Shown here: positions 8,798-29,868 of the stretch, piece after piece
Layout: every line of letters starts with the position of its first letter
Position numbering within the stretch: the first letter of the stretch is position 1
NCBI GenBank assembly: GCA_027366635.1
Contig: DAHXNE010000089.1
Span: 1-46,729 of the forward strand
Source of the DNA: Gammaproteobacteria bacterium
Lineage (GTDB): Bacteria > Pseudomonadota > Gammaproteobacteria > Steroidobacterales > Steroidobacteraceae
DNA length: 46,729 bases
Reading direction: 5' to 3'
Made by a program: the position numbers and the translations under genes
Notes under the pieces: generated by a model
The model's database searches: none
What the model saw: only the letters and a program-made list of their open reading frames with translations
What the model was told of the DNA's origin: nothing

Positions 8798-9718
8798 TCA
8801 GACCAGCAGCCGCGGCTGCGCTTCCCATTCCCGCGCCGCCCGCCTCAGATCCAGAGGTCCCCCATCATCGGCTGCCGCCAGAATCCGCAGCGTTCCCTGA
8901 CCGCACGCGGCATAGCACGCGCCCGCGCGGCCGTAGAGCCGCGGAGCGCCCGCATCGCCGTGATCCTCGAGACGCGTTCGATGAATCCACAAGCGTCGTC
9001 CCGCGACATCGCTGAACGCACCCGGAAACGGCGGCGCGACGGCACGCACCAGGTTGTGGACGCGCGCCGCCGGCCAACGCCAGTCGATCCGACCGTCCTC
9101 GGGTCGCCGCCGGCCGAAGTACTGTCCCGGCACGATCGGCTGCGGCCGGCGCGGCGCAGTGCCGGCAAGCAGCCCCGGGAGCGAGCGCACGAGAACGATT
9201 TCCGCCGCCACGGTCACCTTGGCGTACACCTCCCGGGCCTCGTCGTCCGCGAGAATCGGCACCGCCATCTGATCGACGATGTCGCCCGCGTCGGCGCGCG
9301 CGACCATCTCGTGCAGAGTCGCACCGGTCTCGGGCTCACCGTTGAGGATCGCCCAGTTGACCGGGGCGCGGCCGCGGTATTTTGGCAGCAGCGAGCCGTG
9401 CATGTTGAGCGCGCCGCGCCGTGCACAGCGCAGCAGCGCCTCCGGGAGCAGCGCCCGGTAATAGAAAGAGAACACGAAGTCCGGCGCAAGCGCGGCCAGA
9501 CGCTCCTCGAGCCGCACCGCGCCGGGACTATCGGCCGTGACGACCTCGATGTCGTACTCCCGGGCCGCCTCGGCCACGCTCGCGAACCATTGACGTTCGC
9601 CCGGATCATCGGCCACCGTGACCACCAGCGGCACCTCCACCCCACCGCCGAGGAGCGCTTTCAGACAGCGTACGCCGACGTCGTGATAGGCGAACACGAC
9701 CGCGCGGGCATGGCTCAT
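8798..9718 (-). CDS. arnA (formyltransferase part): Stand-alone formyltransferase half of ArnA
   Basis: N-10-formyltetrahydrofolate-dependent formyltransferase acting on UDP-L-Ara4N. The 306 residues correspond to only the N-terminal domain of the usual 660-residue ArnA. The catalytic Asn-X-His is in LNMHGSLLPKYRGRAPVNW (Asn105, His107), and the catalytic Asp is in RADAGDIVDQ (near 146). The ATG at 9718 overlaps the arnC stop by 4 bases; a longer upstream frame to 9865 lies inside arnC and is rejected. The missing decarboxylase domain is encoded separately at 13982-15040. Confidence 0.93.
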   Translation of the reverse strand: MSHARAVVFAYHDVGVRCLKALLGGGVEVPLVVTVADDPGERQWFASVAEAAREYDIEVVTADSPGAVRLEERLAALAPDFVFSFYYRALLPEALLRCARRGALNMHGSLLPKYRGRAPVNWAILNGEPETGATLHEMVARADAGDIVDQMAVPILADDEAREVYAKVTVAAEIVLVRSLPGLLAGTAPRRPQPIVPGQYFGRRRPEDGRIDWRWPAARVHNLVRAVAPPFPGAFSDVAGRRLWIHRTRLEDHGDAGAPRLYGRAGACYAACGQGTLRILAAADDGGPLDLRRAAREWEAQPRLLV

Positions 9719-24909: not shown

Positions 24910-25089
24910 CGGCATGAGCGCCCTCCCGACGCACCTTGCATCCGGTTCGGGCTTCTTGAACGCCTGGCGCACTACTTCGGCGGCGACCCCGCGAGCCGGC
25001 TGGCGCTGCAAGGGGACTACGACCTGCGCCCGCTGCCGACGCGCAACGACATCGAGCGCAACGTCACACCCCGCGAGGCAACCGCGTGA
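24910..25089 (+). pseudogene. HigA antitoxin relic
   Basis: Frame 24958-25089 ends ERLAHYFGGDPASRLALQ, then DYDLRPLPTRNDIER and a TGA, nearly the same as the C-terminal 44 residues of the intact antitoxin at 25948-26253. Similarity continues about 35 bases past the stop and, weakly, upstream to about 24910, where the middle of the gene is missing and the frame is shifted. It is therefore a decayed duplicate of the nearby antitoxin locus, just outside the left tRNA-like repeat. Confidence 0.8.
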
Positions 25090-25655: not shown

Positions 25656-25937
25656 ATGACCATCCAGTCGTTCGCCTGCAAGCGCACCGAGGCACTGTTC
25701 CAGGGCGGTCATCCGCGAGAGTTCCGGGCATTCGAGAATGTGGCCACGCGCAAGCTGCGCATGCTGAATGTCGCCAAGACGCTCGACTTTCTACGTTCAC
25801 CGCCCGGCAACCGCCTGGAGCCCTTGAAGGGCGACCGGAAAGGCCAACACAGCATCCGCATCAACGACCAGTTCCGTATCTGTTTCACCTGGACGGACGC
25901 GGGTCCGTGCAACGTTGAGATTGTCGATTACCACTGA
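25656..25937 (+). CDS. higB: HigB-type toxin (RelE/ParE superfamily)
   Basis: A 93-residue type II toxin of the HigB/GraT (plasmid killer) family, expected to cleave ribosome-bound mRNA. Diagnostic segments are TRKLRMLNVAKTLDFLRSPP, the LEPLKGDRKGQHSIRIN block and QFRICFTW, ending VEIVDYH. It is followed after 10 bases by its HigA antitoxin, the usual toxin-first order. There is no ribosome site upstream of the ATG, and the promoter places the start of transcription at or near it, so the message may be leaderless. Confidence 0.93.
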   Translation: MTIQSFACKRTEALFQGGHPREFRAFENVATRKLRMLNVAKTLDFLRSPPGNRLEPLKGDRKGQHSIRINDQFRICFTWTDAGPCNVEIVDYH

Positions 25938-25947
25938 GGGCTACCCT

Positions 25948-26253
25948 ATGAGCAAACCCACCGACCGCATGCGCGCCATTCACCCTGGCGAGGTCCTGCG
26001 CGAGGAGTATTTGGCTCCCCTCGGCATGAGCGTGCACGCACTTGCCATGGAACTTGGGGTGCCGGCCACCCGTCTGCACGAAATCGTAAAGGAGCGCCGC
26101 TCCGTGAGCGCCGACACAGCCGAACGGTTGGCACGCTACTTCGGCGGCGACGCCGCGAGCTGGCTGGCGCTGCAAGCGGATTACGACCTACGCACGCTGC
26201 CGACCCGCAAGGACATTGAGCGCAAAGTCACACCCCGCGAGGCTGCCGCTTGA
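25948..26253 (+). CDS. higA: HigA-type antitoxin (XRE family)
   Basis: A 101-residue helix-turn-helix antitoxin pairing with the preceding toxin and expected to repress the operon. It has the HigA signature IHPGEVLREEYLAPLGMSVH. The recognition helices lie around MELGVPATRLHEIVKERRSV, and AERLARYFGGDAASWLALQ follows. The ATG at 25948 fits the family; the frame extends upstream into the toxin only by chance. A decayed copy of its C-terminal half lies at 24958-25089. Confidence 0.93.
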   Translation: MSKPTDRMRAIHPGEVLREEYLAPLGMSVHALAMELGVPATRLHEIVKERRSVSADTAERLARYFGGDAASWLALQADYDLRTLPTRKDIERKVTPREAAA

Positions 26254-26296
26254 TCTGAACCCAGCCGCCTCTACGCTGCTGTTGATTCCGATGCAA

Positions 26297-26464
26297 AATT
26301 TCCTCGGTTTGGACCCACCCGATTTCCTCGGTTGAGGACCACGTGATTTCCTCCGATCGGACCCACCTGATTTCCTGAGGTGAGGACCACCTGATTTCCT
26401 GGCAGGGGACCACCCGATTTCCCGGGTGAGGACCACCCCCCTTTCCCGGAGTGTGGTTTTTGTG
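26297..26464. repeat. Seven 24-base tandem repeats at the IS21 remnant end
   Basis: The core (A/C)TTTCC recurs at 26298, 26322, 26346, 26370, 26394, 26417 and 26441, a period of 24 (once 23). Each unit continues with a variable 5-8 bases and then GGACC(C)ACC. Upstream at 26280 is TGTTGATTCC, which resembles IS21-family termini. The array lies between higA and the istA remnant and is probably the multi-repeat end bound by the transposase. The 5' boundary is uncertain because similarity to the downstream flank of the HigA relic crosses it. Confidence 0.7.
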
Positions 26465-26683: not shown

Positions 26684-27366
26684 ATGAAGCACAGGAGACT
26701 GACCGTGGCTCGATACGAAGAGATCCAAAGACGTTTGGCTGAGGGCCGAGGGGTGCGGGAGATTGCCCGCGCGCTGGGCTGCTCGCGCACCACCGTGCGG
26801 GAGATCCGCGATGGGCTCAAGGGCTCCCCGGCGCACCTGCCCGAGCGGGCCGACCCGCCGTGGATGCTGCAGCTGCAGTGGCCGCAGGTGATCGAGGACC
26901 TCGGGATGGGACACCCGATGAAGCTGATCTGGGAGGAGAAGGCCGAGACGTTGACCACCTACTCGAACTTCTGGAAGCAGTTCTACCGCAAGTTCCCGCA
27001 GTACCGTCAGCCGAGTGTGACGGCCCGGGATTTCTCCCCGGGAGAGCGGGTGGAAGTTGACTGGGCGGGAGACCCGATCGAGTGGATTGATGTCAAGACG
27101 GGTGAGATCCACCCAACCTGGGTGTTTGTCGCGGGGTTGGGCTTTAGTCAACTCGCTTTTTTGCCTGGGCAACAGCGGACATGAAGAGCGCGAACTGGCT
27201 CGCCTGTCACAGGAGGATGTACGAGTACTACGGCGGGGTGCCCGCTGTGACGGTGCCGGACTGTTTGAAGCAGGGCGTGCTCAAGTGTCACATCTACGAC
27301 CCGGACATCAACCCCGGCTATGCGCAGATGGTGGCGCATTTTTCCACGGCAGTGGTACCAGCGCGT
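26684..27366 (+). pseudogene. IS21-family transposase (istA) remnant
   Basis: Encodes the N-terminal and central part of an IstA transposase. MKHRRLTVARYEEIQRRLAE opens a helix-turn-helix. VEVDWAGDP holds the first catalytic Asp, and after a frame change VPDCLKQGV holds the second. Reading breaks within a run of six T (27157-27162): codons before it are in one frame, and ADMKSANWLACHRRMYEYYG continues in the -1 frame. The protein ends near AVVPAR, before the third catalytic residue, where it is joined to Tn3 transposase sequence on the other strand. No istB is present. Confidence 0.85.
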
Positions 27367-29153
27367 CTTGTACTTGGTTGATGAAGCGATCCGCATCGAG
27401 GGGGAGATCCAGCGCCTTGTAGTATTCGTCGCGGTTCGCCTCGAAATCGGCGGGCAAATCCTCATGTTACCGGCGCCTCAAAAATCATTGTAATCGGCCG
27501 GTTTGCAAATCGACGGCATAGAAATTGCGTAGCGGGCCGCCAGACCCACTCGCTGTGAGTCCGGACCGACTATGCAGCCCGCAAGCCCTTGTTGCAGCCG
27601 GGAAAGACGCCAGGATGAACAAGATCGTCAATGGAAACTGGCGGAAGAAAGCGGAAGAAGACATTGAGTTTCAAACTGCCCGGATTTCAAGAGTTTCAGC
27701 TTGCCGATGACATCCTCATCCGGGTCACGATAGCGATTGGCGCCGACGATCCAGATTTCCTTGCAGCGCAGCGGCTCGCGCACGGCCTCCAGCACCGAAA
27801 CCTCATACGTGACACGATTGACGCGATCGCGCCCGGCGGCATCCTTCTCCACCACGGCATCGCGCCACAGGCCACGCACGACGCCCTCGAGCGGCACCTC
27901 CTCCTCGATCGGAAAGGTTCGCAGCTTGGTGTCTGCGAAACGTTTCACGAGATCCACCGCCTGCATGACTGGGCGATGACGTTCGTTGTTGGACCGGAAT
28001 TCGAGGGCCGCCAGGAGTTTCGGCACCATGCGCCGGTAGTGCCCCTGATAGGAGTTGCGGATCACCGTGCGCAGCGTCGTGCGGTAGGTCGGCCCCGTGG
28101 CTTTCCACTCCTTGACCAGATCGCGCAGGGTCTCCTGCCAACCACCGGAAAGACGACCTCGCGCACCACGCCGTCCGGCTGGGCCAGTGTGGCGTCAGCC
28201 AATTCGAACAGCAGATTTTGCTTGCCCGTGACGCGCTTGAGGTCATTGAGCAATTCCCGTTCGACCTTGCGTTCGGCGCGGGCACCGATGCGGTGAATCG
28301 TCTCGATCAGCAGGTCGACCAGATCGTCGGTCAAGCTGCGAGCTCGCAGATAGGCAAACGCAGTCAGCCAGGCGATCCGCGCGGCATCGGGATGCCGGCG
28401 CAGTTCATGCGGTGCCTCGACTGCGACGCGCCGCCGGCAGCGCTCCAGCTCGCGTGGCGAAGCGTGATCGAACAGATCGGTGGGCAGCTCCACACGACGA
28501 ATCAGCTCCACCTTCGCCAATTCCTCCTGCATGCTGGCGAGGTTCGGCCGCCCTGGATTGCCGCGCAGTGCCAAGAGCGGCGCGGGCGCACTGCCCGGAC
28601 CCTTTTCAGCCACGGACGGATCTCCTTCGCCCTCCACACCCAGCAGCCGGTCAAGACGCTCGCGGATCGCCGGCGACAACCGTCCATAGATATCGGCGTG
28701 AAAGCGCTCCTCGTCCGCTCGCAGCGCGGCCCGGGCGATACGTTCCACCCGTTCGGCCGTCGGCGGTTCAATCGACAATTCACGGCAGCGCGCTTCGAGT
28801 CGTTCGACCATCGCTGCAATCTCGCCGCCGGCCTCGGCGGCCACGTGATCTCGCGGCCATTCGGTCAGCGTGTCGGCGTCGGCAACGGTAGCTTCCCGAA
28901 AGCCAAAGCGGGCGCGAATCTCGTTGCGCAGGCGTTTCGCCGTTCTCTCAGCGAGGAGCAATCCTCCATCGGCAGGGACGGTGACCTCGAGCTGGCGCGC
29001 CAGAGCGGCAATGTCCAGCAACTCCAGGTCGGACGAATCGCGTGGAAACCGTCCGTGATCGCGGAAGAACATCATCCACGCTGCAAAAGCGAGTCGGTTC
29101 TCTCGGCTCTTGGTCATCACCATGGCGAAATCGCTAGGCATCAACGGCTGCAT
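27367..29153 (-). pseudogene. Tn3-family transposase (tnpA) remnant
   Basis: Starting MQPLMPSDFAMVMTKSRENR, the sequence first shows the N-terminal DUF4158-type region (ENRLAFAAWMMFFRDHGRFP) and then the central Tn3 region, including NSYQGHYRRMVPKLLAALEF. Three lesions are visible. There is a frameshift near 28135-28141, just after VVFPVVG, where the adjacent frame continues ETLRDLVKEWKATGPTYR. A 246-base insertion lies at 27466-27711. The gene is truncated after DADRFINQVQDAL near 27367, where the IS21 fragment begins. The C-terminal catalytic domain is absent. Confidence 0.88.
27466..27711. mobile_element. MITE-like 246-base insertion with 8-base target duplication
   Basis: Interrupts the tnpA remnant between two copies of ATCCTCAT (27458-27465 and 27712-27719). 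Removing the insert and one copy restores an uninterrupted frame (PDEDLPADFEANRDEYY). The ends begin GTTACCGGC and, on the other strand, GTCATCGGC, and imperfect inverted similarity extends about 50 bases inward, including AATC and GTTTG blocks. It encodes no transposase. An 8-base duplication is compatible with IS66 or a few other families; the parent element is not identified. Confidence 0.8.
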
Positions 29154-29313
29154 CACAGAGTCATTCCGTCCTTGGTTTGTCGCGGTGCAATAACCCTGGT
29201 TTGTACGACAGTTGAGCAAGCTCCAAAAATCGGCCGATTTGGCGCCGATATCTGGCGCAATACCCGTCGCGTATTCTATGATGCGTAAACGGCACCATAC
29301 CAGGGTTACAGCG
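29154..29313. promoter_or_regulatory. Candidate resolution (res) site of the Tn3-type element
   Basis: The 160-base gap between divergent tnpA and tnpR holds several symmetric motifs: TAACCCTGGT (29191-29200) with its exact inverse ACCAGGGTTA (29299-29308); two direct TGGTTTGT copies near 29173 and 29197; and GCGCC/GGCGC (29242-29258) around GATATCT. This is the place and size of a three-subsite res region where the resolvase binds and both promoters lie. Subsite boundaries are not resolved. Confidence 0.55.
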
Positions 29314-29868
29314 ATGAAAATCGGCTATGCGCGAGTCTCGACGGATGATCAGACGCTGGATCTGCAGCGCGATGCCCTGAAGCGCGCCAAGTGTCGTGAT
29401 ATTTACGAGGAGCACGCCAGCGGGAAGAACACCGCGCGCCCGCAGCTCGAGGCCTGCCTGAAGTCCCTACGCGAGGGCGATACGCTGATCGTCTGGCGCC
29501 TCGACCGACTGGGCCGCAGCCTCGGCGACCTCATTCACCTAACCCACGAGTTCAAGACGCGCGGCATTGGGTTTGCCTCGCTCACCGAGCAGATCGACAC
29601 GCGATCGCCGGCCGGGCAGCTGGTATTTCACGTCTTTGGGGCACTCGCAGAGTTCGAGCACAATCTGATCCGCGAGCGCACGCTCGCCGGCCTGAAGGCT
29701 GCCCGGGCCCGGGGCCGCAAGGGTGGCCGGCCCCGAAAGCTCAGCTCGAAGGACCTAAAGACCGTACGCGCGTTGCTCCGCTCCGGTGACGTTCCCGTCA
29801 GCACAATCGCCGAGCAGTTCCGCGTCGCTCGGTCGACGCTCTACCGGAACATCGGTACAGCCGGGTAG
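29314..29868 (+). CDS. tnpR: Tn3-type serine resolvase
   Basis: A 184-residue serine recombinase, apparently intact. The catalytic Ser9 lies in KIGYARVSTDDQTLDLQRDA, the helper Arg in VWRLDRLGRSLGDL, and the dimer helix in FHVFGALAEFEHNLIRERT. The GRKGGRPRKL hinge is followed by a C-terminal helix-turn-helix. The ATG at 29314 matches family N-termini; the frame's earlier ATG at 29212 lies in the res region. It is divergent from tnpA as in the Tn3 subgroup. With the transposase broken, it may persist as a site-specific recombinase acting on its own res site. Confidence 0.94.
   Translation: MKIGYARVSTDDQTLDLQRDALKRAKCRDIYEEHASGKNTARPQLEACLKSLREGDTLIVWRLDRLGRSLGDLIHLTHEFKTRGIGFASLTEQIDTRSPAGQLVFHVFGALAEFEHNLIRERTLAGLKAARARGRKGGRPRKLSSKDLKTVRALLRSGDVPVSTIAEQFRVARSTLYRNIGTAG

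Follow-up and report, generated by a model that had tools for sequence, protein, structure and literature searches.

The Tn3-family transposase gene in the stretch of DNA analysed here (46,729 nucleotides, hereafter the window) is interrupted by a 248-bp insert that matches both ends of IS21 elements and contains no genes; judging by these matches, it is very probably a deletion derivative of an IS21 element that was moved in trans by IstA and IstB. The insert has the properties of a bacterial MITE: it is short and lacks a transposase gene, its ends are inverted, it is flanked by a target duplication, its relatives occupy multiple unrelated sites, and its ends are those of an autonomous partner. 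The interpretation as a MITE-like non-autonomous element, proposed by a preceding sequence-only reading of the window, is thus borne out: copies occur at unrelated sites, their ends match, target sites are duplicated, and a full-length element shares both ends. Relatives were sought primarily in a sample of 58 genomes of the same genus (G numbers; G000 is the window's own genome, W the window copy, and C denotes a contig).

The octamer ATCCTCAT is present at 27458-27465 and again at 27712-27719, with 246 bases in between, and the exact 8-base repeat reported by the sequence-only reading is indeed there. In the window copy by itself, a 6-bp duplication around a TG...CA element and an 8-bp duplication around a G...C element are indistinguishable; the relatives separate them. 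The outer T is kept in six of seven istB-like ends and the outer A in eight of nine istA-like ends; the element therefore extends one base further outward on each side (T...A) than the boundaries of 27466-27711 that had been taken as base-exact, and the duplication is most simply the 6-bp sequence TCCTCA. The apparent 8-mer results from the A before TCCTCA and the T after it, which equal the last and the first base of the element: where an element runs TG...CA, a perfect 8-base repeat on its two sides may consist of 6 duplicated bases and the element's own end bases, a trap in reading such boundaries. The features of the insert and of its surroundings are collected in Table 1.

Table 1. Features of the insert and of the interrupted gene (window positions; strand "." where not applicable)
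Feature	Position	Strand	Basis
Miniature element MITE-A	27465..27712	+	248 bp, TG...CA; aligned with 8 other loci; ends match both IS21 ends
Polarity of MITE-A: istB-like end left, istA-like end right	27465..27712	+	
Target duplication TCCTCA, left copy	27459..27464	.	5-6 bp duplications in 5/6 full-length miniature copies
Target duplication TCCTCA, right copy	27713..27718	.	Exact repeat
Outer terminal repeat, istB-like end, TGTTACCGGCGCCTCAAAAATCAT	27465..27488	+	60-nt end against own-genome IS21 right end (C117): 44/57 aligned positions
Putative inner repeat, istB-like end, 24 nt further in	27489..27512	+	11/24 matches, reached by 333/1000 shuffles
Outer terminal repeat, istA-like end, TGTCATCGGCAAGCTGAAACTCTT on the minus strand	27689..27712	-	60-nt end against own-genome IS21 left end (C40): 41/60 positions
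Putative inner repeat, istA-like end	27664..27687	-	Placed at the 25-nt spacing of most ends
Degenerate Tn3-family tnpA, 5' part, internal frameshift	27713..29219	-	NF033527, 195 bits (cut-off 500) on the ORF 28062-29219; tblastn
Downstream remainder of interrupted tnpA, residues 493-524	27368..27464	-	tblastn with intact TnpA
istA remnant of a different IS21 subgroup, outside the miniature element	26684..27366	+	NF033546, 57.7 bits (cut-off 160) on 26684-27184; six-frame match reaches 27366

The two ends of the window copy are related as inverted repeats over about 50 bases, as had been noticed, in imperfect form: 30 of 52 positions match, and 30-34 of 52 across the three full-length copies described below. 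The assessment that the insert has no coding capacity also holds, the longest ORF that lies wholly within the 248 bp comprising 61 codons' worth of protein (61 aa) and neither istA, istB nor a passenger gene being present. The insert is not an autonomous IS21 element, as istA and istB are absent. A mobile insertion cassette (MIC) carries a passenger gene between IS ends; this reading was rejected because the insert holds only ORFs of at most 61 aa.

An autonomous partner was found in G029:C305, a 3438-bp IS21 element (TGTCATCGG...GGTAACA) that has the same two ends as the miniature together with an intact istA (NF033546, 266 bits; cut-off 160) and an intact istB (NF038214, 257 bits; cut-off 200); G067:C174 follows the same plan. 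A first pointer to IS21 was a remnant in G070, in which a miniature-type end is followed by what appears by eye to be the start of istA. In IS21 elements, the counterpart of the miniature's left end is the end on the istB side, and that of its right end the end on the istA side. When the ends of W and of its full-length relatives in G011 and G068 were compared with IS21 ends, the scores of all 30 comparisons were reached by only 0-18 of 2000 shuffles, 27 of them by none. For a second, related subfamily of miniatures, 16 of 20 comparisons were reached by 0-8 of 2000 shuffles, the remaining four, in which istA-like ends were compared with those of G067 and Caballeronia, being at or near chance (127-1156 of 2000). 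The polarity is clear on the istB side, where like ends score above unlike ends in nine of nine cases; on the istA side, like ends score above in six of nine, equal in two and below in one. The alignment to the istA-side leader runs to ~110 nt, beyond the inverted repeat, and that to the istB-side end to ~60 nt; ~70 nt in the middle of the element match none of the IS21 elements seen. The ends are identical to known IS21 ends at 63-82% of the aligned positions, short of near-identity, and the direct parent may thus be an IS21 element outside the sample. A putative inner repeat is best placed at a spacing of 24-25 nt in 10 of 12 ends, each weak by itself (reached by 18-371 of 1000 shuffles); for the istA-like end of the window copy, the best-scoring offset is 31, not 25. 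Ahead of istA, this IS21 group carries an ORF of 191 aa (L137:599-1174) that has no match in Pfam, NCBIfam or PADLOC, and two annotated Caballeronia copies have two hypothetical genes at this position.

The duplications fall in the IS21 range. Five of the six full-length miniature copies of both subfamilies are flanked by 5-6 bp, exact in the first subfamily as TCCTCA in the window, GCATAG in G068 and GTTCC in G011; the exception, G011:C19, is full-length with its right half replaced and has no duplication. The edges of an autonomous relative could be read in the IS21 element of Caballeronia sp. SBC1/SBC2 (IstA 66% identical), which occurs at 11 places in six plasmid records and of which five copies were used, the first as the reference for the other four. 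On the left, two of the three informative pairs first differ at the base adjoining TGTCATCGG and the third pair two bases further out, the difference in the fourth comparison arising earlier, inside the element; on the right, the first difference is the base directly after the element in four of four. Four of the five copies retain both ends: three of these are flanked by duplications (6, 5 and 5 bp) and one is not; no duplication was found at the complete-looking IS21 elements G029:C305 and G067:C174. For IS5376 of the IS21 family, the passages available give a target duplication of 5 bp (PMC10122671, PMC11208146). Published duplications of Paracoccus IS21 elements measure 7-8 bp, and 8 bp alone would therefore not exclude IS21.

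DNA and end-pattern searches located, in 6 of the 58 same-genus genomes, nine loci of the first subfamily that retain one end or both: two each in G000, G011 and G012, and one each in G029, G036 and G068, G011:C68 and C75 being counted as one insertion because of a 127-bp overlap at their contig ends. Full length is reached by four of them, W, G011:C68, G068 and G011:C19; each of the remaining loci runs into a contig end, is truncated or is interrupted, G012:C204 being counted as truncated because the match of its first 60 nt does not exceed chance, though the model described below spans the locus. The second copy in the window's own genome (C119), at a contig end, is 97% identical over 140 nt. 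The full-length copies W, G011 and G068 measure 246-248 bp, are 71-80% identical and have a homologous interior. Among 17 flanks compared, most of 1 kb, no common sequence was seen at E 1e-3; by this comparison, the miniature copies sit at unrelated sites.

A sequence-only model built from the nine loci, whose matches to them are hence no independent evidence, also finds the second subfamily and a fragment in G003:C81; overall, it has matches in 16 of the 58 genomes at E <=0.01, and the further ones include IS21 ends, the rest being left unassigned. The G003 fragment (L162, 1501-1613) is an interior-only relative without ends (0 of 1000 shuffles) and was left out of the locus count. Further afield, 23 other genomes of the order held no copy, and a search of 396 genomes across the order turned up a single 33-nt match, to a genome of a different genus of the family (G152, E 1.4e-4); this search scored only two candidates per genome and missed the copy-bearing G012, making its negatives weak. 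Plasmids gave no match with the 246-nt query, and IMG/VR yielded no contig with one end pattern. A pattern scan of an 84,980-species collection returned 13 stretches, five of which come from four MAGs of the host genus; inspection by eye of the other eight, which covered all but L095, a second Curtobacterium pusillum record, revealed no additional match. Outside the host genus, no certain copy was thus found in the order, plasmid and IMG/VR searches.

The second subfamily was found in one of the 58 genomes, that of the window, with one copy of 281 bp (C39) and one of 290 bp (C80) that differ by six single bases and one 9-bp repeat unit. Both have exact 5-bp duplications, TGAAT and AAGCG, and their istA-like ends match that of the IS21 element C9 of the same genome at 47 of 58 positions. 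C9 encodes a stretch that matches residues 1-145 of the IstA of G029 at 77%; a contig end cuts the element. A second IS21 element is split between two contigs, C40 ending in its left end and C117 starting with its right end, and the 5-bp duplication CGTTC spans the gap; given this duplication, the two contigs are likely neighbours in the genome. C9 and C40/C117 are therefore potential helpers in the same cell, seen there without complete genes; G029 has both genes intact as well as one copy of the miniature, at a contig end. The window's genome also contains a 69-bp derivative (L192; G000:C2, ~9476-9544) in which the two IS21-type ends, those of the second subfamily, are joined at a run of C; no more than 2 bp of possible duplication flank it.

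Both ends of the window copy are kept in IS21 polarity together with leader sequence, and the host carries cognate IS21 elements, all of which would also suit a single full IS21 insertion in decay, one that lost its middle later and never moved as a miniature. This origin is nevertheless very unlikely: in three genomes, a full-length copy of 246-248 bp occupies a site unrelated to the other two, yet the interiors of all three are homologous, and separate deletions would not produce the same interior; in addition, the two copies of the second subfamily lie at two sites, each with a duplication of its own.

Hardly any weight can be given to a MITE derived from an IS66-family element, with G...C ends and a true 8-bp duplication, as the sequence-only reading had suggested. 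The IS66 family generates 8-bp duplications; the 8-base repeat is exact in the window, IS66 is common in the genus (29 of 58 genomes), and one copy of the miniature is followed by ORFs that by eye resemble tnpA and tnpB of IS66. IS66 parentage was first accepted from these genes beside the G036 copy and dropped because the IS66 element is nested in that copy: its own end, GTATCC..., starts at position 58 as in other IS66 copies. The nested element is inserted at position 1558 of L029 (G036:C315). When five IS66 left ends (left ends only) were compared with the ends of the miniature, all 20 comparisons were reached by 39-1000 of 1000 shuffles, against 0-18 of 2000 for IS21 ends; where further full-length copies are flanked by a duplication, it measures 5-6 bp, given the conserved outer bases T...A. 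A 28-nt match of 82% near an IS66 transposase was set aside, no IS end lying at that place. The full-length element that shares the ends of the miniature, G029:C305, is an IS21 and not an IS66 element. That the segment is instead a conserved RNA gene or regulatory element without any mobility is equally improbable: similarity does extend through the interior (71-80% among the three full-length copies) and an interior-only fragment exists in G003:C81, but there is no Rfam match, no consensus pair in the alignment, many of whose rows are partial, and no single-strand DNA fold better than shuffles (z -0.69), and the copies have target duplications and unrelated sites.

The IS21-derived miniature sits in a gene that can be traced piecewise with the intact 986-aa TnpA of the Diaphorobacter plasmid pDCB1: in tblastn, residues 12-371 align with 29144-28077, 353-495 with 28137-27709 and 493-524 with 27463-27368, confirming that the segment was inserted within a Tn3 transposase gene. 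Aligned separately on the Diaphorobacter tnpA DNA, the two flanks overlap by five bases (nt 1477-1481) plus one alignment-edge base. The local reading frame is thus continuous across the insertion, and an uninterrupted tnpA was formerly present, into which the insertion was local. The expectation that deletion of the insert restores the frame is correct in this local sense only; a separate frameshift is situated around 28077-28137, and the TnpA match stops at residue 524 of 986, no match being found past it where the istA remnant of the other subgroup abuts. The intact Diaphorobacter homologue lacks the inserted segment; with copies elsewhere and a partner element at hand as well, the segment does not belong to tnpA genes as a normal part.

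Several further features surround the Tn3 remnant. Next to it lie genes for a HigB-like toxin (PF05015) and for an HTH antitoxin (window 25656-26253 and 25000-25089), with a second, similar antitoxin tail visible by eye just upstream; the intact Diaphorobacter Tn3 region likewise carries a toxin/antitoxin pair of the HigB-like/HTH type. Ahead of the istA remnant, a GGACCACCTGATTTCCT-like unit recurs in several near-copies (window 26290-26450), which by eye resemble the multiple terminal repeats of another IS21 subgroup. A serine resolvase gene at 29314-29868 (PF00239, 160 bits) is divergent from the tnpA remnant.

IS21 elements have two repeats per end and a terminal CA, and structures show IstA on such repeats, according to the passages available (PMC10122671, PMC11208146). 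The miniature could exploit this machinery in the following manner: IstA would bind the outer and inner repeats at each end, pair the ends and join the 3' ends of the terminal CA to target DNA captured by IstB; strand joining would leave the 5-6 bp duplication. The miniature would contribute its ends alone, IstA and IstB from a full-length element acting in trans, and one transposition, in this genome or in an ancestor, may have placed the element into the Tn3 tnpA. Copies across the genus at unrelated sites with IS21 ends make it likely that the enzymes of a full-length element moved them.

Bacterial MITEs with IS5, IS1182 and Tn3 ends have already been published, as seen in the available parts of the reports (PMC3189936, PMC11578231, PMC4133298). 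An IS21-derived MITE was not found in the part of the literature that was searched; the available portion of a 2024 review of prokaryotic MITEs contains no occurrence of IS21 (PMC10969869), and three MITEs are reported in PMC5756416, whose available passages do not name their families. The two related subfamilies may, tentatively, be the first described IS21 miniatures, living off the Mu/Tn7-like IstA and its AAA+ helper IstB. If this is true, they define the smallest natural DNA accepted by IstA and IstB, the ends and ~250 bp, and the machine works fully in trans; the 69-bp derivative from the window's genome is a hint that still shorter DNA may be enough. An IS21-derived MITE would imply that elements can parasitise, in trans, a transposase that has its own AAA+ partner for target capture, and the 248-bp element would offer a compact natural substrate for work on IstA and IstB.

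Compared with the available descriptions of known systems, the element stands as follows: (i) with the IS21 family (IS21, IS5376), it shares TG...CA ends, end polarity, duplications of the 5-bp class, the match to istA/istB elements of the genus and probably two repeats per end (PMC10122671, PMC11208146), whereas it measures 248 bp against ~3.4-3.7 kb for the IS21 elements here and, without istA and istB, is non-autonomous; (ii) MITEPsy1, which has IS5-type ends, is likewise short and geneless, with inverted ends matching an autonomous element, a duplication and coding sequences as targets, but comprises 100 bp with 18-nt ends and a 4-nt duplication, has ISPsy2 as its probable parent and has been observed to transpose, the 248-bp element being known here from its sequence (PMC3189936); (iii) MITEPye1 is also a low-copy bacterial MITE with direct repeats and the ends of an autonomous IS, in its case IS1182, whereas the parent family of the 248-bp element uses a transposase together with an AAA+ helper (PMC11578231); (iv) TIMEs are likewise miniature derivatives of a larger transposon family and have Tn3-family ends, whereas here the Tn3 tnpA is the target only (PMC4133298, PMC13367494).
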